A program made the position numbers and the translations under genes. From assembly GCF_009712475.1 (NCBI RefSeq), contig NZ_VCJO01000001.1, positions 310,001 to 374,000 on the forward strand: a DNA stretch of 64,000 nucleotides. Reading direction: 5' to 3'. Under the pieces are notes generated by a model. It worked only from the letters and a program-made list of their open reading frames with translations, was not told the origin of the DNA and ran no database searches. The DNA comes from Micromonospora sp. CP22 (GTDB taxonomy: Bacteria; Actinomycetota; Actinomycetes; Mycobacteriales; Micromonosporaceae). Shown one piece after another: positions 3,696 to 60,209 of this stretch; the stretch's first letter is position 1; each line of letters begins with the position of its first letter.

Positions 3696-5423
3696 ATGGG
3701 TGGTGGGGTTAGCGGCGGAGCGGATCTGCTCGGCGAGCGGTACCGGCTGATCGAGCAGCTCGGCGCGGGCGGCATGTCCGTGGTCTGGCGGGGCTACGAC
3801 GAGGTGCTCGGCCGGCAGGTGGCGGTCAAGGTCCTCGCGTCCCGACTGGCCAGCGACCGGGCGTTCCGGCACCGGATCCGGATCGAGGCCCAGGCCGCCG
3901 CCCGGTTGTGCCATCCCAACATCACCAACGTGTACGACTACGGCGAGTCCGAGCGGGACGGCGTGACCGTGCCGTACGTGGTGATGGAGCTGATCGACGG
4001 TGTTCCGCTGACCGCGCGGTTGGCCCGCGACGGACGCCTGCCGTGGCGGGAGGCGGTGTCGGTGGCGGCCGAGGTCACCTCCGCGCTGGCCACCGCGCAC
4101 GCCCGGGGTGTGGTGCACCGTGACGTCACCCCCGGCAACGTGATGCTCACCGCGACCGGGGTGAAGGTCGTCGATTTCGGCATCTCCGCCCTGATCGGCG
4201 AGAGTGAGAAGGGGCCCGACGGCACGCTGCTCGGCACACCGGCGTACCTCGCCCCGGAACGACTCGACAACGGGCAGGTCAGTCCGGCCACCGATGGCTA
4301 CGCGGTCGGGCTGCTGTTGTACCGGATGCTCACCGGTCGGCTGCCCTGGCAGGCCGACACCACCACGCAGATGTTGCGCGCGCACATGTACCGGGAGCCG
4401 GATCCGATGCCCGACGTGCCGGGGCTGCCCGGCAACGTCGTCGATCTCGTTCACCGGTGTCTGGCGAAGCTGCCGGCGGATCGACCGGCCACCGCCGAGC
4501 TGGCCCGGACCCTCGCCGAGGCGGCCGGGAAGGTGCCGACCGTGCCGGTGGCGGGCGGTACCGGGGACACCGGTCCGGAGTCGTTGGCCGACGCCGGCAC
4601 CACGATCCTGCCCTGGTCCGCGGCGACCGACGCGCTGCCGCTGGCCGGGCTGCGTACTCGTCGCGGGTTGAGCCGCCGACGCCGGATCGAGGCGGTGGCG
4701 GCTGCCGCCGGGCTGATGGTCATCACGGCGGCGGTCTGGGGTGTCACCTCGCACAGCCCCGCCAGCGGCGGGATCGACCAGCCGACCCAGGCGCGTATCG
4801 GCGGGGAGCGTGGGGTCCCCTGCCAGGTCACGTACGCGCTGCGCAAGGACTCCGGCAAGGACTTCACCGCGGAGCTGAGCCTGACCAACACCGGTGACCG
4901 TGAACTGCGTGACTGGACGATGAGCTTCGCCTTCCCGGGCGAGCAGCAGGTGACCGCGGCGACACCGATGCCGGTACGGCAGCAGGGTCGGGCGGTGGCG
5001 GTGCAGCCCGCTCCGCAGCGGCCCGTGCTGGCCCCCGGCGCCACCGAGAAGCTGAACCTGACCGGGCGCTACTCCGGGACGAACCCGCTGCCGGTGGAGT
5101 TCCGGGTCGGCACGGCGGTGTGCGGGGTACAGGTCTCCGGGGTGGCGGGCAGCGCGCCGATCACCAAACCGGCACCCACCAAGTCGGCCAAGACGGTGAA
5201 GGCGACGGCCGGTAAGGCGGGCTCTGTCGGCTCCGGCGACGCCAAGCCCGGCGGGAAGCCCAAGCCGGAGAAGGCCAAGCCCAAGCCGGAGAAGGCCAAG
5301 CCCAAGCCGGACAAGCCCAAGCCTGAACCCAAACCCAAGGACCCCAAGGCGGAGGACGGCAAGGCGAAGGGCGGGGCGAAGCCGCAGCCGGGCAAGAAGC
5401 CCGGCAAGGGTGCCGGCAGCTGA
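3696..5423 (+). CDS. Transmembrane Ser/Thr protein kinase with extracellular CBM2-like domain
   Basis: This is a 575-residue PknB-type kinase. Residues about 14-280 form the kinase domain: P-loop LGAGGMSVVW, VAVK lysine near 45, catalytic loop HRDVTPGN (Thr replaces the usual Lys, as in some actinobacterial kinases), DFG and an APE-like APER. A single membrane helix lies near 331-350. Outside, residues about 374-480 resemble a family 2 carbohydrate-binding module: a Cys near each end, NTGDRELRDWTMSF matching the CBM2 NxGxxxxxxW core, and LAPGAT. The tail is a Lys/Pro repeat (KPKPEKA units) ending in basic residues, perhaps a wall-contacting region. There are no PASTA repeats. The sensor could therefore read a polysaccharide. 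It converges on ktrA with a 9-bp gap. Confidence 0.88.
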   Translation: MGGGVSGGADLLGERYRLIEQLGAGGMSVVWRGYDEVLGRQVAVKVLASRLASDRAFRHRIRIEAQAAARLCHPNITNVYDYGESERDGVTVPYVVMELIDGVPLTARLARDGRLPWREAVSVAAEVTSALATAHARGVVHRDVTPGNVMLTATGVKVVDFGISALIGESEKGPDGTLLGTPAYLAPERLDNGQVSPATDGYAVGLLLYRMLTGRLPWQADTTTQMLRAHMYREPDPMPDVPGLPGNVVDLVHRCLAKLPADRPATAELARTLAEAAGKVPTVPVAGGTGDTGPESLADAGTTILPWSAATDALPLAGLRTRRGLSRRRRIEAVAAAAGLMVITAAVWGVTSHSPASGGIDQPTQARIGGERGVPCQVTYALRKDSGKDFTAELSLTNTGDRELRDWTMSFAFPGEQQVTAATPMPVRQQGRAVAVQPAPQRPVLAPGATEKLNLTGRYSGTNPLPVEFRVGTAVCGVQVSGVAGSAPITKPAPTKSAKTVKATAGKAGSVGSGDAKPGGKPKPEKAKPKPEKAKPKPDKPKPEPKPKDPKAEDGKAKGGAKPQPGKKPGKGAGS

Positions 5424-7428: not shown

Positions 7429-7799
7429 CAGACAATCTTCTGATTCCGCCCGCACATCCGGGCCGGAACCGGGATCCCCCACCAGCCTCGCTCCGGCTCC
7501 GGGCGGCGGCTGGCCGGGACGCCCGATCCACCTCGCCGAAGCCGAGCCGCCGGGCGGACAGGCGCTCCCGATGCGGGGCCGGAGCGTGGGGGGAGGCGAC
7601 ACATGGCGGGCCGAAGTCGTGGGAGCCGGGCCCATCGCCACGCCGGACCACCACCACTGAGCGGGCGAGGTTTGTGACAGCTGGCCACACCAACCCGGTT
7701 ACTTGTGTGTTTCCGCCACATGGCCCGTGGGTGACGTCACTTCTAGCGTGAGCCGACACATAAGGTTTTCCTTCCTCTGAGTCCTCACGTGGAGTCGCA
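7429..7799. other. 371-bp divergent intergenic region between ktrB and livK
   Basis: No coding sequence is supported here. For livK there is a -10 box TAGCGT at 7744-7749. It is immediately preceded by the perfect 10-bp palindrome GTGACGTCAC (7731-7740), where a regulator could act. Further upstream, 7698-7713 reads GTTAC-N6-GTTTC; on the other strand this is GAAAC-N6-GTAAC, which resembles GlnR half-sites. I looked for a c-di-AMP (ydaO) riboswitch upstream of ktrB and did not find its conserved core. Confidence 0.5.
7731..7749 (+). promoter_or_regulatory. livK promoter with palindromic site next to the -10 box
   Basis: GTGACGTCAC (7731-7740) is a perfect palindrome ending 3 bp before the -10 candidate TAGCGT (7744-7749). 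Transcription would begin near 7756, giving a leader of about 45 nt with GGAG before the ATG at 7800. The palindrome overlaps the spacer and could be a repressor site. Confidence 0.45.
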
Positions 7800-15867: not shown

Positions 15868-16893
15868 ATGGCTGACCAGGCACCCGACGCGCCTGCGCTC
15901 GGGTCGGTGCGGGCCGCCGAGCGAGCGGCGGCCGGGCCCGATCCCGGCGCGGCCCCGGCTGCCCAGGACCGTGCCGTGGCCTCTGCCGTGCCGGACCGGG
16001 CCACGCTGCGGCTGGCCCTGGTGGTCGGCGGCCTTGTGCTGGCGGTGCTGCTCGGGTTCGGGCTCGGCCGAATCGACGGTGGCGGTGACGCCATGGCGAC
16101 GGGCCGGACGGACAGCGCGTTGGCCGACCACACCCACGCCCCCGGCCTCGGCGCGCACTCGCACGGTGCCGACCAGGACGCGGCGGCCGAGGCCGGCGGT
16201 CTGGCGGTCAGCCGCGACGGCTACACCCTGACCCCGCTGAACGCCGAGTTCACCGCCGGCCAAGCCGGTGAGCTGCGGTTCCGCATCCAGGACGAGCAAC
16301 GCCGGCCGGTCACCCGGTTCGCGGTCGTGCACGACAAGCCGATGCACCTGATCGTGGTGCGTCGGGACCTGTCCGGTTACCAGCACCTGCATCCGACCAT
16401 GGCGGAAGACGGCACCTGGTCGGTGCCGCTGACGTTGCCGTCACCCGGCGTCTGGCGCGCGTACGCCGACTTCACCGCCCTCGCCGCCGACGGCCGGCAG
16501 ACCGCGACGACGCTCGGGGTGGACCTGGTGGCGCCCGGCGACTACCTGCCTCGTGAGCTGCCCACCCCGGCGACCACGAGCACCGTCGACGGATTCACCG
16601 TCGAGTACCGGGGCGTTCCCCAGCCCGGCCTCACCGTGCCGGTCAGCTTCCGGATCACCGGGGCGGACGGCGGGAGCCCGGAGCTGGAGCGCTACCTGGG
16701 CGCGTACGGCCACCTCGTCGCGCTGCGCGAGGGGGATCTCGGCTACCTGCACGTGCACCCGGACGCGGAACTGGTCGACGGGGCGGTGCGGTTCTGGCTC
16801 ACCGCGCCGGGGCCTGGGCGCTACCGCCTCTACCTGGACTTCGCGACCGGCGGAGCGGTGCGTACGGCGGAGTTCACGGTCTCCGTGCCGTGA
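15868..16893 (+). CDS. Membrane-anchored His-rich protein with duplicated beta domain
   Basis: This is a 341-residue protein. An Ala/Pro-rich cytoplasmic N-terminus is followed by one membrane helix near residues 49-70, then an extracytoplasmic His-rich linker (DHTHAPGLGAHSHG, about 88-103). Two similar beta domains follow. In the first, KPMHLIVVRRDLSGYQHLHP is followed by GVWRAYADF; in the second, GHLVALREGDLGYLHVHP is followed by GRYRLYLDF. The paired HLHP and HVHP motifs suggest copper or other metal binding of the YtkA/FixH-like kind. No function has been demonstrated. It converges with the XRE gene across a 4-bp gap. Confidence 0.7.
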   Translation: MADQAPDAPALGSVRAAERAAAGPDPGAAPAAQDRAVASAVPDRATLRLALVVGGLVLAVLLGFGLGRIDGGGDAMATGRTDSALADHTHAPGLGAHSHGADQDAAAEAGGLAVSRDGYTLTPLNAEFTAGQAGELRFRIQDEQRRPVTRFAVVHDKPMHLIVVRRDLSGYQHLHPTMAEDGTWSVPLTLPSPGVWRAYADFTALAADGRQTATTLGVDLVAPGDYLPRELPTPATTSTVDGFTVEYRGVPQPGLTVPVSFRITGADGGSPELERYLGAYGHLVALREGDLGYLHVHPDAELVDGAVRFWLTAPGPGRYRLYLDFATGGAVRTAEFTVSVP

Positions 16894-51473: not shown

Positions 51474-51494
51474 ACCGGCGCGTCGCACGCCCGG

Positions 51495-51500
51495 TAGCCT
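51495..51500 (+). promoter_or_regulatory. -10 box TAGCCT of a truncated gene
   Basis: TAGCCT is followed by the ribosome binding site GAGGAGG (51508-51514) and ATG 51521. The expression signals are complete although the gene behind them is broken. Confidence 0.5.
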
Positions 51501-51520
51501 CTGCCGCGAGGAGGCGCACT

Positions 51521-51628
51521 ATGAAGTTGACCGCCCCCGGCCCCGCCCACCCGGCCGTCGTGGTCAACGCTGCTATCGGGGGAGTGGGTCAGCGATGTAC
51601 ACGCCCTTGCCCTGTCGGCCGTCAATAA
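51521..51628 (+). pseudogene. Truncated gene start at the edge of the accessory region
   Basis: A canonical promoter, GAGGAGG ribosome binding site and ATG lead into only 35 codons. The first 18 or so (MKLTAPGPAHPAVVVNA) look like a genuine core-gene N-terminus. The rest is antisense to the convergent GntR gene and ends at TAA 51626. The most economical reading is a core gene cut by insertion of, or deletion next to, the accessory block; the missing part is not recognisable elsewhere in the window. I do not know the original gene. A real 35-residue peptide is the alternative. Confidence 0.5.
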
Positions 51629-51797
51629 GCCCCTCAGCCTTGAGGATCAGCATCGCGGCGCGGACGACGGTGTTGCTGACCTTGTAGTGCTCGCACAAGG
51701 CGGCGAAGGACGGCAGCTTGTCACCCGGCTTCAGTTGACCGGAGCTGACCTGCTCTCGGATATCCCGGGCGACCTGAAGGTACGCGGCTTCAGACAT
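51573..51797 (-). CDS. Short GntR-family regulator
   Basis: This is a 74-residue protein consisting only of the winged helix. YLQVARDIREQVSSGQLKPGDKLPS is the GntR N-terminal helix pair, CEHYKVSNTVVRAAMLILKAEGLI the recognition helix, and GRQGKGVYI the wing. No effector domain follows. Such minimal GntR proteins often control integrative elements. ATG 51797 with GGGAG upstream is preferred over the frame to 51851. Two copies of CCAGCTTGGCGGC (51809-51821 and 51921-51933) upstream could be its operators. Confidence 0.8.
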   Translation of the reverse strand: MSEAAYLQVARDIREQVSSGQLKPGDKLPSFAALCEHYKVSNTVVRAAMLILKAEGLIDGRQGKGVYIADPLPR

Positions 51798-52126
51798 AGG
51801 TGGTGCTCCCAGCTTGGCGGCTGGTGCAAGGAGATCACGCCACGCCCCCAACTTGCAACGCTATGTGCTGTTAGTAGTTGACCCTGAGCACATTGCGTCC
51901 TAAGTTGCTCGTGGGGTCATCCAGCTTGGCGGCCGGGTGCTCCTGCCGTGGGTGCTCCTTCACTAGCTGGGGGTGCCCACGGGCTTCTCCAAGTCCTGCG
52001 GGAGGCAACGTGGCGGGATCTGACGATCCGACTGTTCGGGCCGCAGGGCTGGGGCAAACGGACCAGAACGCTGGCCGTCGCCAGATTCCTGCCCAGAATC
52101 ATGGAATCGGCCGCAATCGGAGGCGA
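51798..52126. other. 329-bp divergent intergenic region
   Basis: It contains the GntR leader, the 13-bp direct repeat CCAGCTTGGCGGC at 51809 and 51921, and three GGTGCTCC motifs. An open frame runs through but has no family-like composition until GTG 52127. No RNA gene was recognised. Confidence 0.5.
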
Positions 52127-52318
52127 GTGTCCTATGGCGAGTACGTCGCGGCGGTGGCGCTGACTCTCGCGTACCGCCATCGCCCGGTCTGGTCGTGGCG
52201 GCGGTGGCGGCGCGTATGCCGCTGTGGTGCGGACCTGCCCTGCCGGGTCCGGCACCGAGTGCCGATCAACCGTGGGCACTGGCCGGTGCCGGATCGGCGG
52301 TGCGGTCGTGAGCCGTGA
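52127..52318 (+). CDS. Small hypothetical protein preceding an HTH-TPR regulator
   Basis: This is a 63-residue basic, Trp/Arg/Cys-containing protein (VSYGEYVAAVALTLAYRHRP, with CRCGADLPCR further on). GTG 52127 has GGAGG 4 nt upstream. It overlaps the start of the HTH regulator by 11 bp, so the two are translationally coupled. The CxC/CR cluster could bind a metal, but too few Cys residues are present to be sure. No known family. Confidence 0.6.
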   Translation: MSYGEYVAAVALTLAYRHRPVWSWRRWRRVCRCGADLPCRVRHRVPINRGHWPVPDRRCGREP

Positions 52319-53495
52319 TCCGGTGCCGATCGGTCGGCGGGTCGCCTACCTGCGGGTACGGCGGCGGATGTCGCAGCAGTCGTTCGCGGACCGGTTGGGC
52401 AAGTCGAAGAGTTGGGTGGACAAGGTCGAGCGTGGGGTGCGCTCGTTGGAGCGGGTGTCGACCATCCGTGACATCGCCGCCGTCCTGCGGGTTGATGTGT
52501 CGACGCTGCTCGGCCGCGACGCTCAGCCGGCCGAACCGGTCGCGCGAAGCGAGGGCGTGGCGCGGATCCGGGCGGCGCTGTCGACGTACGACGCGGCACT
52601 CGGCCGCCTGGCCCGCCGCGAACCGGCGTCGAACGAGCTGGCCGGGGCCGTTGCCCACGCCTGGACCAGCTACCAGCACGCCCGGTACCCGTACCTGATC
52701 GAGCAGTTGCCGTCGCTGCTCGCCGACGTGCAACGCGCCCACGCGCACGAGCCGGAGGTGGCCCGGGGCACGGTGGTCGAGGCGTACCGATTGACGGCGG
52801 CCCTGCTGGTCAAGCTGGACGAGCCGGGTCTGGCCTGGCTGGCCGCCGACCGCGCGATGTCCGCGGCGACCGGTGACCGGGTGTTGGTGGCGTGCGCGGC
52901 GATACAGCTCGGTCAGGCGTTGCGAGCCACGCCGAGGGCAAGATCCATACTGCTGGCCGCCGCCTATCGGATCGCTCCGCGAGACTTCGACACCGGTACG
53001 CCGGAGGAGCTGTCGTTGTGCGGATCCCTGCTGGTGCAGGCGGCGCTGGTGGCCGGCAGGTCCGGCGACGAGCGCGGGGCGGCCGAACTGCTGGACGAGG
53101 CCGCCGAGCTGGCCGCCCGGGTGGGCGAAGGGCACGACCATCATCGGACCGGCTTCGGGCCAACGGCCGTCGAGGTGGCCCGGGTCGCCGCTGCGGCGGC
53201 GGGTGATGCGGGGGAAGCTGTCCTCCGCCACGAGAAAATGATGACGCGGAGCGGGTGGCGCTGGCTCTCCGTCGAGCAGCGGGCCGCGCACCTGATCGAC
53301 GCGGCCTGCGCCTACCTGCACGTCGACGAGGTCGGCAAGGCTGGTCACGCCCTGACGCAGGCCGACCACATCGCCCCGGCCGAGATACGTCACCGGCCGA
53401 CGGGCCGGGAGATGGTCGCGCAGGTCGCCCGTGCCCCGGGCGCCCCCGCGACGATCACCCAGCTCGCCATCACCCTCGGCGTACTCCGCCCATGA
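52308..53495 (+). CDS. XRE-family regulator with TPR-like C-terminal domain
   Basis: This is a 395-residue protein. The N-terminal HTH (residues 8-65) reads RVAYLRVRRRMSQQSFADRLGKSKSWVDKVERG. The remainder is Ala/Leu-rich helical repeats resembling TPRs, as in actinobacterial NsdA/BldB-like or peptide-responsive regulators. It would bind DNA and probably a peptide or partner protein. GTG 52308 overlaps the small upstream gene. No clear regulon can be named. The downstream 640 bp lack a gene. Confidence 0.82.
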   Translation: MSRDPVPIGRRVAYLRVRRRMSQQSFADRLGKSKSWVDKVERGVRSLERVSTIRDIAAVLRVDVSTLLGRDAQPAEPVARSEGVARIRAALSTYDAALGRLARREPASNELAGAVAHAWTSYQHARYPYLIEQLPSLLADVQRAHAHEPEVARGTVVEAYRLTAALLVKLDEPGLAWLAADRAMSAATGDRVLVACAAIQLGQALRATPRARSILLAAAYRIAPRDFDTGTPEELSLCGSLLVQAALVAGRSGDERGAAELLDEAAELAARVGEGHDHHRTGFGPTAVEVARVAAAAAGDAGEAVLRHEKMMTRSGWRWLSVEQRAAHLIDAACAYLHVDEVGKAGHALTQADHIAPAEIRHRPTGREMVAQVARAPGAPATITQLAITLGVLRP

Positions 53496-54138
53496 CCGCG
53501 TCCTCAGCCCGCCGACAGCCGGGCGCCCGCGAGCACCACCGGAGGTACGGCAGCCGGCAGCCGGCGATGTCAGCCGGCGAAGTGGTTCAAAGTTTCTGTA
53601 CGTCTTCAAGGCGGCCCTGAACGGGCCGCACGCACCGCCGCCTGGGCGCGCGTCCGTCGCTCCGCTGACGCTCCGACTCCGGCCACGCAACACGCCCGGC
53701 GGCTGGCGCGGAAGCGGAAAGCCCAAGGGGCCGCCGCAGAACGACAGGGGCGTTGACCGGTGAGGGGTGGGCCGGCAGCCGGCCGGGCCGCGCGTCCACG
53801 AGCCCGCGCGGCGCAGGGCAGCGGACGCCGGCCGCGTCGGCGAGCTGGCGGCGGTGGCGGGGTTGCGGTTACTGCTGCCTCCGGCGGGGGCGCTCCGGCG
53901 CCAGGATGGCCCGGGCACCGTCGGCGCGTCACGGTCCGTGGGTGGTTACGGTAGGCCATCCCGCCCGCCATCGACCCGGGCAAGCCGAGCAGACCACCGC
54001 CCGACCCGCCAGCGCCCGAACTTGCGTCAAGGTCCGCTTGACGTGGCGGGCCGGGCGGCGGCCCGCTCCCCCAGGGGCGGGTCGACGGCAGACGGGATGG
54101 CTGAGTGCGCGCCGGTGTGCAGTGAGCTTCAGCAGAGC
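53496..54138. other. 643-bp region without a convincing gene
   Basis: Open frames exist on both strands but are Arg/Pro-rich and lack starts, ribosome sites or family similarity. The stretch 53580-53757 looks structured: GGCGGCCCTGAACGGGCC-like self-complementary blocks and the palindromic GGCCGGCAGCCGGCC near 53768. It has the appearance of a non-coding repeat or a decayed gene. Composition falls from very GC-rich to moderate near 54100, where the Fic gene begins. Confidence 0.4.
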
Positions 54139-55287
54139 TTATGCCACGGATACCGAGTAGATATTCTTCTCTCGGTAGGGATCGGTCAGGCGAGGTCGAT
54201 CCGCAGCCACTCGTTGTCGGATCTGGCGAAGTCTCTCAGTTGCAACATAGAAGCGTCCACGCGTCTCCCCGAGCGGTTCAAGCAACTGACGGCTTACCAT
54301 CATGCGGAGGTCGCGGTTTGCGGTTCCGACCTCAATCTCCGCATCCTTCTCATAAACCGGCCTCCGAACCCTGAGTCCCATAGCTGCTGGATACAGTGCG
54401 AACACGGTCCTCGGCGACAGGTCGAGCCGCTCTACCTCTTGTTCAAGCTCCAACCACGTCCGTTGCGCGTCCTCTACTCGACGGAGGACTGTCTGAGCCT
54501 GCATATGGTGAGCTACTAGGTTGAAGCGAACCCAGGGGCGCGTGTCGTTCTCGGGATGCCAAGAGCCCTGACCAACGGCAGCTAGGACTGCGTAGTATGC
54601 GGCGGTGTTTCGCCCTAGCCATTCCTCGATGGAACTGAACTCGGGCGCGAGAATTCTTTCTCGCGCTAGCACCAGCGTCTGTAAGGCGCGAGCCATGCGT
54701 CCGTTGCCGTCTCTGAATGGATGAATCATTACCAGGTTGAGGTGGGCGAGGGCGGCTCGGACGAAGTTGGGAGTCTCGCTTGCGTTCCGAAGATCTTCGA
54801 TAAGTTCCCGCATCAGTCCCGGCACTATGTCAGAACTTGGCCCTTCGTATACAAGGAGGTTCTTCTCCTCGTCGTGAACGAATATCTGCCCTGGGCGGTA
54901 CCTGCCTGGGCTCTTGGTTAGGTCGTGACCCAGCATCATGAAGTGCAAACTTCGGATTAGCGACTCATCCAGCGAGAAGTCTGAGTCGTCGGCAAGTTGC
55001 TGGATGTAAGTCAGGGCATTTCTATAGCCTAGGATTTCCAGCGAAGTGCGCTTGTCTGCGTCGAGAGGTTCCTCGTCCTCAAGAAGGGCAACCGCATCGT
55101 CTAGCGACACGTCGTAGCCCTCAATGCTGTTGGATCCGCGGATCGCGCGTGCCTTGAGGTTGCGACGTAGTTGACCCTTCCAGCGGCGAGGCTCGTGCAG
55201 GAACAACCGCAGTCTCTGCCGGAACTCATGGACCTCTGAGATGACTCGGAGGTCTTCATCGTCTAGAGGGGGAGGCGTGAAGAGCAT
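54139..55287 (-). CDS. Fic-domain protein (class II, self-inhibited AMPylase-like)
   Basis: This is a 382-residue protein. The Fic core HPFRDGNGRMAR (catalytic His, Mg and phosphate binding) lies near residues 190-201. Upstream, SNSIEGY near residues 52-58 matches the inhibitory S/TxxxE(G/N) motif placed N-terminally, which defines class II Fic enzymes. A C-terminal winged-helix-like region ends the protein. The usual reaction is AMP transfer from ATP to a hydroxyl of a target protein. ATG 55287 follows AAGGAGG. Codon use is less GC-biased than in neighbours, suggesting transfer. No antitoxin gene adjoins it. Confidence 0.88.
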   Translation of the reverse strand: MLFTPPPLDDEDLRVISEVHEFRQRLRLFLHEPRRWKGQLRRNLKARAIRGSNSIEGYDVSLDDAVALLEDEEPLDADKRTSLEILGYRNALTYIQQLADDSDFSLDESLIRSLHFMMLGHDLTKSPGRYRPGQIFVHDEEKNLLVYEGPSSDIVPGLMRELIEDLRNASETPNFVRAALAHLNLVMIHPFRDGNGRMARALQTLVLARERILAPEFSSIEEWLGRNTAAYYAVLAAVGQGSWHPENDTRPWVRFNLVAHHMQAQTVLRRVEDAQRTWLELEQEVERLDLSPRTVFALYPAAMGLRVRRPVYEKDAEIEVGTANRDLRMMVSRQLLEPLGETRGRFYVATERLRQIRQRVAADRPRLTDPYREKNIYSVSVA

Positions 55288-55303
55288 GGCAAATCCTCCT
55301 TGC

Positions 55304-55321
55304 TGATAGAACTTCTGTCAA
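55304..55321 (-). promoter_or_regulatory. Operator-like palindrome, copy 1 (at fic)
   Basis: On the minus strand it reads TTGACAGAAGTTCTATCA. It lies immediately upstream of the fic ribosome binding site, so a bound protein would block fic expression. Confidence 0.6.
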
Positions 55322-55323
55322 CA

Positions 55324-55342
55324 TTAACAGATCATCTGGCAA
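55324..55342 (-). promoter_or_regulatory. Operator-like palindrome, copy 2
   Basis: On the minus strand it reads TTGCCAGATGATCTGTTAA. It is separated from copy 1 by 2 bp, forming a tandem pair in front of fic. Confidence 0.6.
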
Positions 55343-55399
55343 TCTGGTTACTGTCGGTGTGTTGATCGTTGCAGCTCGCCTCCTGGTCCTGCGTTGCAG

Positions 55400-55557
55400 C
55401 TGAGGCTGCTGTGGTGGGTGGTTGTTGGCGGCGGCTGTGGTTGTGAGCGTGCTTGCCGCGATGCGCTGGGCAGATTGCCAGATGTTCTATCAATCCGGTT
55501 GGGCCGCTGCGCTGCTGCCAGCGTGCGTGCTGCGTCGGGAGGTCGGTTGCGGCGGTG
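55400..55557. repeat. 158-bp direct repeat, unit A
   Basis: It matches 55723-55880 with about five mismatches and a constant offset of 323 bp. The unit contains one operator-like palindrome (55475-55493). Confidence 0.9.
55475..55493 (+). promoter_or_regulatory. Operator-like palindrome, copy 3
   Basis: It reads TTGCCAGATGTTCTATCAA and lies within direct repeat unit A. Confidence 0.6.
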
Positions 55558-55595
55558 CGTTGCTGCTGCTGGTTGCGTGCGTCGTCATGAGTAGA

Positions 55596-55614
55596 TTGAC
55601 AGAAGTTTTGTCAA
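55596..55614 (+). promoter_or_regulatory. Operator-like palindrome, copy 4 (most symmetric)
   Basis: It reads TTGACAGAAGTTTTGTCAA; the outer arms TTGACA and TGTCAA are exact complements. It lies between the two direct repeat units. Confidence 0.65.
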
Positions 55615-55722
55615 TCTCGCCACGCCGCTGCATCGAGGGTGTCTGTAGAGGCTTCGTGTTCGAGCGTCACTGCAGTGGGGCGGTGGCTGCGAGGTGTGCC
55701 GATGCTGGGCATGTGGCTGCTA

Positions 55723-55880
55723 CTGAGGCTGCTGTGGTGGGTGGTTGTTGGCGGCGGCTGTGGTTGTGAGCGTGCTTGCCGCGATGCGCTGGGCAGATTG
55801 CCAGATGTTCTATCAATCTGGTTGGGCCGCTGCGCTGCTGCCAGCGTGCGTGCTGCGTCAGGACGTTGGTTTCGGCGGTG
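55723..55880. repeat. 158-bp direct repeat, unit B
   Basis: This is the second copy of the unit at 55400-55557, about 97 percent identical by eye. Differences cluster at its right end. Confidence 0.9.
55798..55816 (+). promoter_or_regulatory. Operator-like palindrome, copy 5
   Basis: It reads TTGCCAGATGTTCTATCAA, identical to copy 3, and lies within direct repeat unit B about 230 bp before tcmP. Confidence 0.6.
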
Positions 55881-56044
55881 CTGGACTGTTCGGACAGTTC
55901 GGCCCCGTTGCTGGCGCAGCTCATTGGCGGCTTTGGTTCCTCTTGGCGAAGAAATCAACCATGTGTTGGCGGAGATTCACAGCCTTCCGCGCGCCGCAAC
56001 CTTCCGCTAGCGTGGCGCTACTTACTGTGGCCAGGGGAGGGCTC

Positions 56045-57226
56045 GTGGCCGGTGCAGACTTCTTCGCTTCAAAGAAGGCGGCTGCCGTCTTCAAGCACGG
56101 CATCCTGAGCCGGTACCCGGTCGTGTTCGCATCGAAGACTGGCAAGAGCGTCGAGGGCAACCGGGTTGTCTTCCTAGATGGATACGCCGGCCGTGGGGAG
56201 TACGACGACGGGCAGCCGGGCTCGCCGCTGCTGCTGTCGCGGTGTGCCGAGTTCGTCAGGGGTTACCGCAATGTCCTGGGGTTCTTCATCGAGCAGAACC
56301 CGGACAACTTTGCCAACCTGGAGCGCGTACTCGACGAGAAGGGTGGCGACGCTGAGCGGGTCGTCCGGTCCGGCTCGGTTGACGAGCACCTTCCCGAAGT
56401 CCTAAGACGGGCCCAGGGCGCGTCGCTGTTCGCCTTTCTCGACCCGTTCGGTCCTGCGTTGGACTTTGACCTCCTCAAGGCCGCCCTGCTCGGTCGCCCG
56501 TCGTGGCCGCCTACTGAGGTCCTGCTCCACTTCAGCGTCTTAAGCGTCGCTCGAATGGGCCGTGCCGTACATGCGGCTCGTTCCAGGCGCGGGGAGCTGT
56601 CGCCGGCAGATCAAAAGACCGCCGGCCGGCTAGACCGCTTTCTCGGCGGCGACTGGTGGCAAGAACACTTTGCCGGCGTTCGGGACGAAGGCGATGAGCA
56701 GCGAGCTACCGAGATTGCCTTAGAAGTCTGTGACAAGTACGAGAAGCTCTTGACGGCCGGAACGAGATACCGAGCGGTCAAGATGCCGGTGCGGCCCAGG
56801 CCCGATCTGCTGCCGAAGTACGTGCTGGCGCTGTTCACGGCCAGCAACGAGGGAGCCTGGCACTTCGCGGACTCGCTGGGTAAGGCGGGCGTGGAGTGGT
56901 CGGTGGCGTGGCAGACGGACCTGCTCCGCAAGGGGGAAAAGCACGGGCAGGGCTCGCTGTTCGGCGACGATGAGTTGCCGACTCCCGAGAGCTACAGCAG
57001 TCGACACGGCACCGAGTGGACGAGGATTATTGCGGGGAACCTCGAACGGCTGCTGGACGAATTGGGCCCGTACTGCCCTGCCGATTATGTGCCGGAGGTC
57101 TATGGCGCGACTCTAGGCCAGGCAAGCACCCCTCACGTCCGGGCCGCCGTGAAACAACTGAGCGGAACGTCTGTGGCCAACACTGGTAAGGGCGACTTCT
57201 GGAAGGAGCAGCTGCGGCGCCCGTAG
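56045..57226 (+). CDS. tcmP: Three-Cys-motif partner protein TcmP
   Basis: This is a 393-residue protein. The N-terminus is characteristic of TcmP: DFFASKKAAAVFKHGILSRY, then VVFLDGYAGRGEYDDGQPGSPLLL, a Rossmann-like glycine-rich segment. AFLDPFGPALDF near residue 140 recalls a methyltransferase motif IV (DPFG). TcmP proteins are encoded beside Gp37/Gp68-type three-Cys-motif proteins; their function is unknown. GTG 56045 follows GGGGAGGG. The expected partner is present at 58455-59213 on the opposite strand, but an IS630 element now separates the two. Moderate GC suggests horizontal acquisition. Confidence 0.82.
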   Translation: MAGADFFASKKAAAVFKHGILSRYPVVFASKTGKSVEGNRVVFLDGYAGRGEYDDGQPGSPLLLSRCAEFVRGYRNVLGFFIEQNPDNFANLERVLDEKGGDAERVVRSGSVDEHLPEVLRRAQGASLFAFLDPFGPALDFDLLKAALLGRPSWPPTEVLLHFSVLSVARMGRAVHAARSRRGELSPADQKTAGRLDRFLGGDWWQEHFAGVRDEGDEQRATEIALEVCDKYEKLLTAGTRYRAVKMPVRPRPDLLPKYVLALFTASNEGAWHFADSLGKAGVEWSVAWQTDLLRKGEKHGQGSLFGDDELPTPESYSSRHGTEWTRIIAGNLERLLDELGPYCPADYVPEVYGATLGQASTPHVRAAVKQLSGTSVANTGKGDFWKEQLRRP

Positions 57227-57258
57227 GGGGTGTAGTCCCTCCTCTCCGGGCTGGCTTC

Positions 57259-58457
57259 TAGTGCCTCGTCTTTGAACGTTGATCGTGTAATGCGTCGGTT
57301 TTGAGGGTCTATCGGGCAGGCTGTCTCCCAGCACTCGTGGTGGGAGGTGATGGCCGGTGGGTAGACGGCCGGAGGTGTTTGTCCGGCAGGTGTCGATGGC
57401 CGAGGGGCAGCGGTTGCAGCGGATCACCCGGACCGCGAAGGACCCGGTGAAGCTGCGCCGGGCGATCGTGGTGCTGATGTCCGCGCAGGGGCAGCCCGCG
57501 CCGGACATCGCTCACCTGCTCAAGGCCAGCGAGGACTACGTCCGTGACGTGATCCACGCGTTCAACGAACGGGGGTTCGACGCCTTGAACCCAAAATGGA
57601 GCGGGGGCGCACCGAGACGGATCGATGAGCAGACCAGAGACTGGATCTGCGTCATCGCCCGGTGCGACCCCCGCTTCCTCGGCCAGCCGTTCTCCTGCTG
57701 GTCCCTGGCCAAACTGCGCGACTACCTCATCGCCGCTGGCTACGCCACGGCGATCAGCAGCGAGACCATCCGACGGATCCTGCACGAACGCGGGATCTCG
57801 TGGCAGGCCACCAAGACGTGGAAGGCCAGCACCGACCCCGACTTCACCACCAAGATGCGCCGCATCCTGGACCTCTACGACCACCCACCACCTGATGGGC
57901 GGGTGCTGTGCGTCGACGAGTTCGGGCCGCTCAATCTGCAACCCCGCCCCGGCCGCGCCTGGCGGCCCGTGGCACACCCGGTGCGGCTGCGGGCCACCTA
58001 CACCCGTGACCAGGGCGTACGGCACATGATCGCCGCCCTGGACTGACCACCGGACGGCTGCACTACCGCATCCGCGACCGCAAACGCTGGCGCGAGTTCC
58101 TGGCCTTCCTCAAGACCCTGCGCCGCCGCTGGCCCGACCAGCGTCTCTACCTCATCGTGGACAACTTCTCCCCGCACAAGCACCCCGAGGTCCGCACCTG
58201 GTGCGCCGACAACCAAGTGGACCTGGTCTTCCTGCCCACGTATGCGTCGTGGCTGAACTGGATCGAGGCCGAGTTCGCCGCCGTGCGCTACGTCGCCCTC
58301 AACGGCACCGACCACCGCAGCCACGCCGAGCAGGACACCGCGATCGGCGACTACATCCGCTGGCGCAACCAACGCGCCAGACCGAAAACCGCATTCGCCA
58401 CCGGATCCAAGATCCGCCACCCGGATTACCCGTTCAAGGCTGCATGACGAGGCACTA
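57259..58457. mobile_element. IS630-family insertion sequence with TA target duplication
   Basis: The element spans 57261-58455 (1195 bp). Terminal inverted repeats GTGCCTCGTC (57261-57270) and GACGAGGCAC (58446-58455) are perfect over 10 bp, and GAACG/CGTTC matches continue inward with a gap. Both ends are flanked by TA (57259-57260, 58456-58457), the target duplication expected of IS630/Tc1. Removing the element and one TA rejoins the ends of the convergent tcmP and Gp37/Gp68-like genes without changing either stop codon. Confidence 0.92.
57357..58447 (+). pseudogene. IS630 transposase, frameshifted
   Basis: The first part (GTG 57357 to TGA 58046, 229 codons) has the N-terminal helix-turn-helix domains and the first catalytic Asp in CVDEFGPL. 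The second part continues in another frame to TGA 58445, with IVDNFSPH (second Asp) and PTYASWLNWIEAEF (catalytic Glu). The shift occurs near 58040, where GGACTGACC looks like a one-base loss from a Leu codon before the expected LHYRIRDRKRW. Either the transposase is inactivated or frameshifting restores it; no obvious slippery run is seen, so I call it broken. Confidence 0.85.
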
Positions 58458-59213
58458 GCCGATCGACGTGAGTTCCCGCGCTGTTGGCATCTCGTCCCAT
58501 GTCCGACCGTCCAACTCCCGACCGCCGGCCTTTGGCGTTCTGCCGCCCCACTGTTTGAAGAAGAAAGCCGTACCGCTTGCGACGCACTGGTCGCGCAGCG
58601 ATCGCACCCAAGCGGGATCCATCGGCCGGCAGCCGGGGCCAGACTCGCCACCGGCGATCAGCCAGTCAACGCTCTCAAGGTTCAGGTCGTCCAGCGGGCC
58701 GAGTAGCGGCTCGGCCGAGACAAACCGAACGGCAGCAGGCACCCGGCGGAGATGGTCGATGCGCTCCGTCTGTTCATCATCCTCGACGGAGACACCCATC
58801 CAGACGTTGGCCGGCCAGGTCAGTCGGGGTGCGAGCTTCGCAAGCCTCGCGGCTCGCTTGGTGAGTACCTGGTAGGTGTGCTGCGGGGTTGCCGCCATGA
58901 CCTCAAAGACCTGCTCAACGAAGTCGAAGGGAACCTTCGCGTGGAACAGGTCGCTCATCGAGTTGACGAACACGACGCGGGGTTCTCGCCATCGAAGAGG
59001 CAGCGTTAGCTCACCGGGGTGTACTGCGATTCCGAAGCCCGGTCCCGACGTACGGGGGTCGCCGTCCGTCTGATACTTGGCCGACCCCATGGCCTTCAGC
59101 CGCTTCGCCAAGGTCAACGCGTAGCAGTGATCGCAGCCGCGCGAGATGCGATCGCAGCCAGTTGTCGGGTTCCATGTGGCTTCGGTCCACTCGATAGAGC
59201 TCTTGTCTGCCAT
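58455..59213 (-). CDS. Phage Gp37/Gp68-like three-Cys-motif protein (DUF5131)
   Basis: This is a 252-residue protein. It begins SSIEWTEATWNPTTGCDRISRGCDHCYA, the family N-terminus, whose Cx6CxxC cysteines form the three-Cys motif resembling a radical-SAM cluster site. FVNSMSDLFHAKVP, YQVLTKRA and WLIAGGESGPGCRPMDP are further family blocks. The C-terminus has FFKQWGG. A radical-SAM-like Fe-S chemistry is suspected for the family but not shown. ATG 59213 follows GGGGAG. Its TAG stop shares bases with the TA duplication of the IS element. It is the partner of TcmP. Confidence 0.87.
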   Translation of the reverse strand: MADKSSIEWTEATWNPTTGCDRISRGCDHCYALTLAKRLKAMGSAKYQTDGDPRTSGPGFGIAVHPGELTLPLRWREPRVVFVNSMSDLFHAKVPFDFVEQVFEVMAATPQHTYQVLTKRAARLAKLAPRLTWPANVWMGVSVEDDEQTERIDHLRRVPAAVRFVSAEPLLGPLDDLNLESVDWLIAGGESGPGCRPMDPAWVRSLRDQCVASGTAFFFKQWGGRTPKAGGRELDGRTWDEMPTARELTSIG

Positions 59214-59481
59214 CACCACTCCCCGGCCGGTTGGAACGATTCTGTCGAACGTGCGTACGGATTGAAAGGCGTGGAGGCGATCTTTCTGCCGGGCGAGCAA
59301 CACGGGCAGCAGTTGCCCATGCTCCAATCGACCAACGCGCAAGGCCCAGAGTGAGACGCGACCAGGCCGTCGCCAGGCCGTCGCAGGCCGAATGGCGGTG
59401 ACCAACGACGACCACTGGTGACGACTTCTGCCCAGGTGACAAGGCGTGGCCGGCGCGATGACCAGGCCGGCCGGGACCGCC
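59214..59481. other. 268-bp intergenic region upstream of the Gp37/Gp68-like gene
   Basis: It contains the leader of the Gp37/Gp68-like gene and the 3' side of yajQ. AT-richer sequence near 59238-59265 is the likely promoter area. I see none of the 19-bp operators here. Confidence 0.35.
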
Positions 59482-59976
59482 TTACCTGTAGTTGGTGAAC
59501 TGAAGGGCGACGCCGAAATCCTCGGCCTTGAGCAGCGCGATGACCGCCTGAAGGTCGTCCTTCTTCTTGCCCGTGACGCGGAGCTGGTCGCCCTGGATCT
59601 GGGCCTGGACACCCTTCGGGCCCTCGTCGCGGATCTTCTTGCTGATCGCCTTCGCCTTGTCCTGGTCGATCCCCTGGATCACCTTGGCGTCGATCTTGAA
59701 AACCTTGCCCGAGGGACGCGGGTCGCCGGCGTCCAGCGACTTCAGCGAGATGTTCCGCTTGATCAGCTTCTCCTTGAACACCTCCAACGCGGCGCGGACC
59801 CGCTCCTCGGTCTCCGCCTGGAGGCTGATCGTCTCCTCGCCCGACCAGGAGATCCCCGCCCCGGTGCCCCGAAAATCGAACCGCGTCCCGAGCTCCCTCT
59901 CCGCCTGGTGGAGGGCGTTGTCGACCTCCTGGCGATCGACCTTGCTCACGATGTCGAACGACGGGTTCGCTGCCAT
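59482..59976 (-). CDS. yajQ: YajQ-family nucleotide-binding protein (DUF520)
   Basis: This is a 164-residue cytoplasmic protein matching YajQ length and sequence: [30 protein letters not shown] at the start and [28 protein letters not shown] at the end. It has two ferredoxin-like lobes. Family members bind RNA, and some bind c-di-GMP and act as co-regulators; the role here is inferred. ATG 59976 follows AGGAG by 8 nt; ATG 59982 two codons upstream is too close to that site. It is divergent from tRNA-Tyr. Confidence 0.92.
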
Positions 59977-60056
59977 ACTCATGCTCCTGCTGTCCGGCCG
60001 GTTTGTGGTCCTTCGTCCCTGGTTGCCCAGGGGTACGACACCCTGACGGTACCCGG

Positions 60057-60087
60057 TTGCACCATCGGCGGTTGGAGCCGCTATCCT
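60057..60087 (+). promoter_or_regulatory. Promoter of tRNA-Tyr
   Basis: -35 TTGCAC (60057-60062) and -10 TATCCT (60082-60087) with a 19-bp spacer precede the tRNA by about 38 nt. Confidence 0.5.
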
Positions 60088-60125
60088 TGCTTCCGCTGCC
60101 GCATCACGGTGCGGTGGTACGCCCT

Positions 60126-60209
60126 GGCGGGTTGCCCGAGCGGCCAATGGGAGCGGACTGTAAATCCGTCGCGAAAGCTACAGAGGTTCGAATCCTCTAC
60201 CCGCCACCA
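60126..60209 (+). tRNA. tRNA-Tyr (GTA)
   Basis: This is a class II tRNA with acceptor stem GGCGGGT / ACCCGCC (60126-60132 and 60199-60205), discriminator A and encoded CCA (60207-60209). The anticodon is GTA (60160-60162) in loop CTGTAAA. A long variable arm and GGTTCGAATCC T-arm are present. The gene is intact. In Streptomyces coelicolor the integrative element SLP1 uses tRNA-Tyr as its attachment site, so this is a plausible integration hotspot, but no integrase lies nearby. Confidence 0.96.

Follow-up and report, generated by a model that had tools for sequence, protein, structure and literature searches.

The TcmP/DUF5131 gene pair: a mobile module with a candidate role in nucleic-acid modification and phage conflict

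The stretch of DNA considered here, called the window below, comprises 64,000 nucleotides of Micromonospora sp. CP22 (contig NZ_VCJO01000001.1, positions 310,001 to 374,000) and carries two convergent genes, both intact, with an insertion sequence between them. On the forward strand, a TcmP-family protein of 393 residues is encoded at 56045..57226 (GTG start at 56045, stop ending at 57226); it scores 93.6 bits against TIGR04474, for which the cut-off is 53. Facing it on the reverse strand (58455..59213) is the gene for a 252-residue protein of the DUF5131 (Gp37/Gp68) family, with 345 bits against PF07505 (gathering cut-off 28.9). The intervening element (57261..58455, forward strand, ends read from the sequence) belongs to the IS630 family both by its transposase and by its duplicated TA target. 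The transposase lies in two frames (57357-58046 and 58157-58447), of which the first matches NF033545 (110.5 bits, cut-off 100) and the second contains a DDE domain. The element is 1,195 bp long, has inverted ends that match each other, and is flanked by TA at 57259..57260 and 58456..58457; no second copy of full length was found in the assembly, where it has five further matches, all of them pieces. Coordinates and profile matches bear out an original prediction, made from the letters of the window, that a TcmP and a Gp37/Gp68-like protein with a Cx6CxxC motif face each other across an IS630 insertion.

The uninterrupted junction is preserved in three relatives (L002, L003 and L004), whose TcmP proteins are 93, 93 and 91% identical to that of the window; there the two genes are separated by 31-32 bp, and the junction accounts for both TA copies. 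As the right TA forms part of the DUF5131 TAG stop codon, and the end base of the element restores TAG after insertion, both proteins are unaltered by the IS630 element. The original prediction also held that the genes, being intact, are still expressed. The intactness stands, but the step to expression does not: the insertion sits at the shared 3′ junction, so that intactness says nothing on expression.

One can place TcmP by its resemblance to RlmJ, the 23S rRNA methyltransferase of Escherichia coli. E. coli RlmJ is matched by TIGR04474 weakly (E 0.0012, 18.8 bits, under the cut-off), and when a profile of 36 diverse TcmPs is compared with one of 11 RlmJs, the match has a probability of 95.8% (E 7.2e-9) and spans 151 columns, starting at motif X and running beyond motif IV. 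Among 62 aligned TcmPs (a count that includes phage Bosnia twice), K17 and G49 are present in all 62, D133 in 61, D45 in 59 and P134 in 57. K17 (codon at 56093..56095) stands at the place of RlmJ K18, the motif X lysine; D45-G-Y-A-G49 (56177..56191) covers the region of motif I, which binds S-adenosylmethionine (SAM); and D133-P134, within D133-P-F-G136 (56441..56452), aligns with the motif IV Asp-Pro, D164-P165, of RlmJ. K18 and D164 are reported as required for catalysis by RlmJ (PMC3814359). A match of TcmP to Vsr (E 0.11) was rejected as noise, and searches of solved structures by sequence, with single proteins or profiles, gave nothing significant for TcmP or DUF5131. The window TcmP has no Pfam match to PF04378 (RlmJ), and for this reason it is termed RlmJ-like rather than filed as an RlmJ. 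It would be a SAM-dependent methyltransferase, expected to act on the exocyclic amine of a nucleic-acid base.

DUF5131, for its part, looks like a radical-SAM-type protein. Its three cysteines, C20, C27 and C30 (CX6CX2C; 59124..59156, reverse strand), are invariant in 39 diverse members. It matches the model for radical SAM mobile pair protein A (TIGR04471) with E 2.7e-20 and 72.8 bits, under a cut-off of 355, and residues 13-221 align with the Bacteroides mobile pair protein A at 29% identity (99.7% probability, E 9.7e-26). The motif in the Bacteroides protein is GC-x3-C-x2-CYA, and the alignment opens a three-residue gap inside the cysteine motif. It is this homology, to an accepted member of the superfamily with the canonical motif, that settles the kinship; in deposited phage records, one DUF5131 protein is named ‘radical SAM domain-containing’ and another ‘RNA methyltransferase’. 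The earlier suggestions that the cysteines hold an Fe-S cluster and that the two proteins together modify nucleic acid both gain support, the former from the radical-SAM kinship and the latter from that kinship together with the RlmJ-like partner. By sequence comparison, the biochemical classes of the two proteins are very probably as described.

Co-occurrence across genomes was originally suggested as a check, and the two families do occur together. A TcmP profile search gave 32 loci from named genomes, 31 of them with DUF5131 adjoining (22 convergent, 9 co-directional); the exception, L032, is a 67-residue TcmP match. In a sample of 121 genomes of the genus, TcmP is present in 28 and DUF5131 in 34, all 28 TcmP genomes having both (Fisher 6e-22). 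DUF5131 lies no more than 3 kb from TcmP at 29 of the 31 genus TcmP places used (22 convergent, 7 co-directional), and 19 of the 48 DUF5131 places used are unpaired; one small piece was set aside from 32 TcmP matches and one from 49 DUF5131 matches. In a sample of 246 genomes from the phylum, TcmP was found in 36 and DUF5131 in 34. A gene for a three-cysteine protein adjoins TcmP in 32 of those 36, and the remaining four hold fragments or weak matches only; four weak or partial matches out of 37 to PF07505 were dropped before neighbors were counted. In 21 cases the neighbor is DUF5131, and in 11 it is another three-cysteine protein; two PF07505 matches with E 1e-4 (G225 and G326) proved on reading to be other radical-SAM-like proteins and are counted as such. 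The pairing of TcmP with DUF5131 was itself already known, as the original prediction stated, and its parts and architecture are now clearer; in agreement with that prediction, which called the function undescribed, no study of it was found in the open-licence PMC literature, subscription journals and preprints lying outside the search.

Ten of the 11 alternative partners (those in L259-L265 and L267-L269) match the model for the Rv2578c family of radical-SAM proteins, which resemble spore photoproduct lyase (SPL), with E 2e-3 to 5e-15, under its cut-off. They read GC-x3-C-x3-CYA, that is CX3CX3C, one residue more than is canonical; in the eleventh partner, from L266, the motif is CX3CX2C. TcmP appears, from motifs and profile matches, to pair with radical-SAM-like proteins of several kinds, and in two of these kinds the cysteine spacing is unusual. 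The partners also speak for an alternative, DNA repair, in which DUF5131 would act as a spore-photoproduct-type lyase assisted by TcmP: ten of them score with the Rv2578c family, and the cysteine motif of DUF5131 aligns with that family as well, at 24.6% probability and over the motif only. Repair is nevertheless very improbable as the function. Patchy presence, several insertion sites and exchange of one partner beside repressors, described below, are untypical of repair genes.

As an accessory module the pair is real, widely retained and mobile, and it is carried by phages, plasmids and chromosomal islands. Of 72,556 plasmid records, 25 match TcmP and 397 match DUF5131, and annotated pairs are found on pCAR1.3, Phaeobacter pP14_b, a Streptomyces plasmid and Rhodococcus pYYL1.1. 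The Phaeobacter pair is followed by a dGTP triphosphohydrolase gene, and the Rhodococcus pair by genes for a DUF262 protein and an EcoRI-family adenine methyltransferase (L243 and L245). On pSymA of Sinorhizobium meliloti, two TcmP-like frames on opposite strands follow one DUF5131 frame (L218, 14221-17266). An expression table in PMC12445080 lists the TcmP gene SMa2243 beside SMa2245, the Hna defence gene.

DUF5131 is present in 161 of 50,697 phage records and in at least 587 viral-contig stretches; among 80 of these that were kept, TcmP adjoins in 18 when iterated profiles are used. When 125 DUF5131 domains, 56 of them paired and 69 unpaired, are placed in a tree, 11 label changes are required, and none of 500 shuffles gave as few: paired forms make up groups among stand-alone phage forms, in a tree that was quickly built, has few strongly supported forks and includes some ‘solo’ rows at contig ends, for example L034. 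The stand-alone DUF5131 genes of the phages read have genes for recombination, replication or a methylase close by; the neighbors in phi3LM21 and PhiCh1 are mostly unnamed. A DNA methylase gene is found within about 2 kb of the stand-alone gene at L138, L144 and L141, a hint of DNA as the substrate. At 60 viral DUF5131 loci where TcmP was not found, the 117 neighbor proteins include few recognisable families, among them up to five DNA methylases. At one locus, L181, a second, unpaired DUF5131 (16014-16799) lies about 5 kb from the pair; its counterpart L003_17237 is placed by the tree next to the paired DUF5131 of L012.

The two halves of the pair are conserved to very different degrees. Among 56 pairs (1,540 comparisons), where DUF5131 identity is 70-75% (275 comparisons), the median TcmP identity is 35%, and part of this gap is an ordinary difference in rate. 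In 14 comparisons, however, DUF5131 is at least 78% identical and TcmP is below 45%, the lowest at 20%. The identities are taken over aligned columns, and a few distant comparisons are falsely high (up to 1.00) on few columns; reliance is therefore placed on one set of phages and on DNA breakpoints. In six temperate phages of Gordonia (Bosnia, Angelique, ThankyouJordi, Easley, Jablanski and BaxterFox), DUF5131 is 92-97% identical in all 15 comparisons, and TcmP falls into four alleles: Bosnia with Angelique (88%), ThankyouJordi with Easley (97%), Jablanski, and BaxterFox. Identity between alleles is 23-29%, and all six proteins score as TcmP with E 2.3e-32 or better (iterated profile). In all four phages with another allele, homology to Bosnia DNA ends at locus position 4228, 22 nt before the DUF5131 stop, and restarts between 5341 and 5375, level with the TcmP start (5344) or slightly above it. 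Easley also shares the repressor side with Bosnia (88.7% over 1.1 kb), so that one gene has been exchanged between conserved flanks. A neighboring metalloprotease block is found in 126 records, 15 of which, under ten phage names, also have DUF5131 (the best 60 of the 126 being listed); searches with the alleles add WelcomeAyanna, Pytheas and PantheRoc, with Fairfaxidum at 47%. In the bacterial relatives nearest the window (L002-L004), no exchange was seen: DUF5131 is 94-96% and TcmP 91-94% identical.

Exchange of this kind bears on a second alternative, in which the pair acts on translation: TcmP would methylate rRNA or tRNA as RlmJ does, and DUF5131 would modify the same RNA, tuning or stopping translation during infection. 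Among characterised proteins, TcmP has its closest relative in an rRNA methyltransferase, and the phage record that names a DUF5131 protein ‘RNA methyltransferase’ points the same way. Yet a fixed host RNA target is poorly suited to a protein that diverges so strongly and is exchanged as a cassette, nor does presence in 28 of 121 genus genomes fit such a function; the alternative is improbable, less so than repair.

The location of the pair in the Gordonia phages suggests what it may be for. In five of the six, TcmP lies directly downstream of the immunity repressor gene on the same strand, with a 4-nt overlap or a 3-nt gap; in Jablanski two genes intervene and the repressor is on the other strand. 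In phage CarolAnn the order is gene 42 (metalloprotease-like, 83% identical in DNA to the Bosnia block), genes 43 and 44, and the repressor. As reported in PMC6426606, a membrane protein and a RexA-like protein are encoded by genes 43 and 44, lysogens transcribe both genes together with the repressor, and defence against Kita and its relatives needs the two of them. The notion that genes 43 and 44 are themselves the TcmP/DUF5131 pair was rejected, the proteins being unrelated. A defence is thus proven in this slot, by way of different genes, and the position argues by analogy for a defence role of the pair. Other phages, TuertoX for example, keep other unnamed genes there.

A further pointer comes from the two-part candidates PDC-M30 and PDC-M41 of the PADLOC collection. 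Their B models match DUF5131 at 350 and 368 bits, and their A models match TcmP weakly (best E 1.7e-7 and 1.2e-4; model cut-off not stated), so that these candidates would appear to be the TcmP/DUF5131 pair. PDC-M30 was predicted in 32 of 100 Pseudomonas aeruginosa strains, 68.8% of which fell in the more phage-resistant half; this association is confounded, because resistant strains carried more systems overall (PMC10855318).

A third alternative gives the same distribution a different meaning, supposing that the pair modifies the DNA of its own carrier, be it phage, plasmid or island, and so shields it from host nucleases or those of rivals. Sequence specificity would then vary from one TcmP allele to another, with DUF5131 making an addition to the base. 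Such an anti-restriction role suits a pair that is carried by phages and plasmids and has no nuclease of its own, and it suits the stand-alone DUF5131 genes in replication and recombination regions, with DNA methylases alongside in some phages. It accords less well with chromosomal island copies lacking an obvious phage, and with the place of TcmP after the repressor in all Gordonia phages but one of the six, where expression would be expected in the lysogen rather than early in lytic growth. Self-modification seems unlikely on balance, while it carries more weight than the RNA or repair alternatives.

In the window, the pair is part of an accessory island of about 8 kb (51480..59465, ends approximate), recognised by comparison of genus genomes, between core DNA and the yajQ gene (59482-60147, reverse strand, identified by profile searches) with tRNA-Tyr (60126-60209, forward strand); both anchors are present in 61 of 61 genus genomes. 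The island also encodes a helix-turn-helix regulator (52224-53495, forward strand; phage regulator family phrog_5823, E 6.6e-71) and a Fic protein with the motif HPFRDGNGR (54139-55287, reverse strand; PADLOC SoFic, E 3.6e-47). Of 20 genus genomes fetched for this site, 19 show a gap of about 0.2-3.5 kb between the core block and yajQ, with no nucleotide match to the pair; in the remaining one (L238), yajQ alone is visible. When 20 of the 31 genus TcmP places were grouped by eye from a comparison of shared flanks, five lay beside yajQ, seven shared a single different site, and eight were in other locations; L196, in the last group, has 3.6 kb in common with a stretch near L181. The idea that the pair is fixed beside yajQ was rejected accordingly, as the site used by those seven loci is empty in this window (near 7452..7661, from alignment with L178 and from shared flanks).

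Some further features of the region may be recorded. A direct repeat of 164 nt (55395-55558 and 55718-55881, 96% identical, 323 apart) lies just upstream of TcmP, and with these repeats a 27-nt element (ATTGCCAGATGTTCTATCAATCTGGTT-like) occurs four times, in both arms of inverted pairs. Within some tens of kb of yajQ, additional partial copies of the tRNA-Tyr end are present in many genus genomes, such as integrating elements would leave on the far side of a tRNA.

The preferred interpretation, whose chances may be put at about even, is that TcmP and DUF5131 constitute a mobile nucleic-acid-modification module in phage conflict, with TcmP setting specificity. A role in phage defence, considered on its own, is favored by a slender margin over its absence. 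Joint modification with TcmP as the specificity half stands a little below even, and is still the likeliest mechanism: the conserved radical-SAM half would cleave SAM and perform a fixed chemistry, and the fast-changing, cassette-exchanged half would transfer methyl groups and determine recognition. A temperate phage would express the pair as a prophage, keeping other phages out of the lysogen; pairs carried on chromosomes and plasmids would defend their host.

Several observations weigh against one part or another of this interpretation. Motif IV of TcmP is DPFG where RlmJ has DPPY, and the alignment begins at RlmJ residue 10, so that Y4 and H6 of the RlmJ tail fall outside it; DPFG may resemble the DPFG of the tRNA guanine methyltransferase Trm1. 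The spacing in DUF5131, CX6CX2C, is not the canonical CX3CX2C, and non-canonical spacings are known in the radical SAM superfamily. There is no match of DUF5131 to Pfam Radical_SAM (PF04055) at E up to 1, and its place is not among the PF04055 matches of its own genome at E up to 10; one-by-one comparison with the radical-SAM loci of that genome found no convincing match, and of 15 Rv2578c-type proteins the cysteine motif alone was matched, global alignment giving nothing. No nuclease or killing domain was seen in the pair. DUF5131 can evidently work without TcmP, as its stand-alone forms are common in phage replication regions. Finally, the flanks of the pair have been searched for defence families, using 194 proteins from 20 genus loci in two halves, and 199 of 200 control proteins, all from crude gene calls. 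The two test halves matched 35 and 48 families and the controls 6 and 8; mad3 was matched by nine of 194 flank proteins and three of 199 controls. Besides mad3, the families listed (the top 25 of each set) all represent kinases (three and four matching proteins), and these seven Ser/Thr-kinase proteins, which give the visible excess, probably come from the one site shared by seven loci. No clear defence-island signal thus surrounds the pair at these 20 loci. The earlier proposal of a phage-defence role accordingly gains from the PADLOC candidates and the Gordonia slot, and gets no independent help from the co-occurrence with defence islands that had been suggested as a test of it.

A broader supposition, tentative and rather doubtful, though a shade less so than self-modification, is that TcmP with a three-cysteine partner is a widespread immune module of constant and variable parts. 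In it, a radical-SAM protein of relaxed spacing (CX6CX2C, or CX3CX3C in the SPL-like kind) would be joined to a hypervariable RlmJ-like methyltransferase, whose recognition alleles would be traded among phages, plasmids and hosts like restriction specificity subunits, radical chemistry taking the place of the nuclease. If true, the coupling of a radical-SAM enzyme to an exchangeable methyltransferase would bring a new kind of chemistry into phage conflict, and TcmP would help to find radical-SAM-like proteins whose cysteine spacing departs from the canonical one. The Gordonia phages amount to a natural experiment: their DUF5131 proteins are near-identical, their TcmPs are of four widely differing kinds, and earlier measurements of prophage defence exist both for this slot and for this host (G. 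terrae 3612). The questions of defence and specificity are thus directly testable with existing phages.

The pair may be set beside several known systems. With RlmJ, the E. coli m6A2030 enzyme, TcmP shares homology over the 151 columns, the motif X lysine, motif I and the Asp-Pro of motif IV; it differs in its DPFG, in an extra C-terminal part, in the missing Pfam match, and in always standing beside a three-cysteine protein in the intact cases seen. Radical SAM mobile pair protein A is homologous to DUF5131 and likewise half of a mobile two-gene pair, but it has the canonical CX3CX2C, and its partner is a second radical-SAM protein, not TcmP. The RexAB-like defence of CarolAnn, genes 43 and 44, is again a matter of two genes in the slot between a metalloprotease-like gene and the repressor; the proteins are unrelated, and for CarolAnn the defence is proven. 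PDC-M30 and PDC-M41 are two-part phage-defence candidates whose B models match DUF5131 and whose A models match TcmP weakly; they are entries in a candidate list, for which the literature searched gave no tested function or mechanism. Prokaryotic viperins are radical-SAM enzymes with anti-phage action too, but they act on nucleotides and have no TcmP partner. Type I restriction systems, finally, combine a constant enzyme half with an exchanged, variable specificity subunit, as the pair seems to do; the pair lacks their nuclease and methylase core, and its variable half, TcmP, would itself be the methyltransferase.

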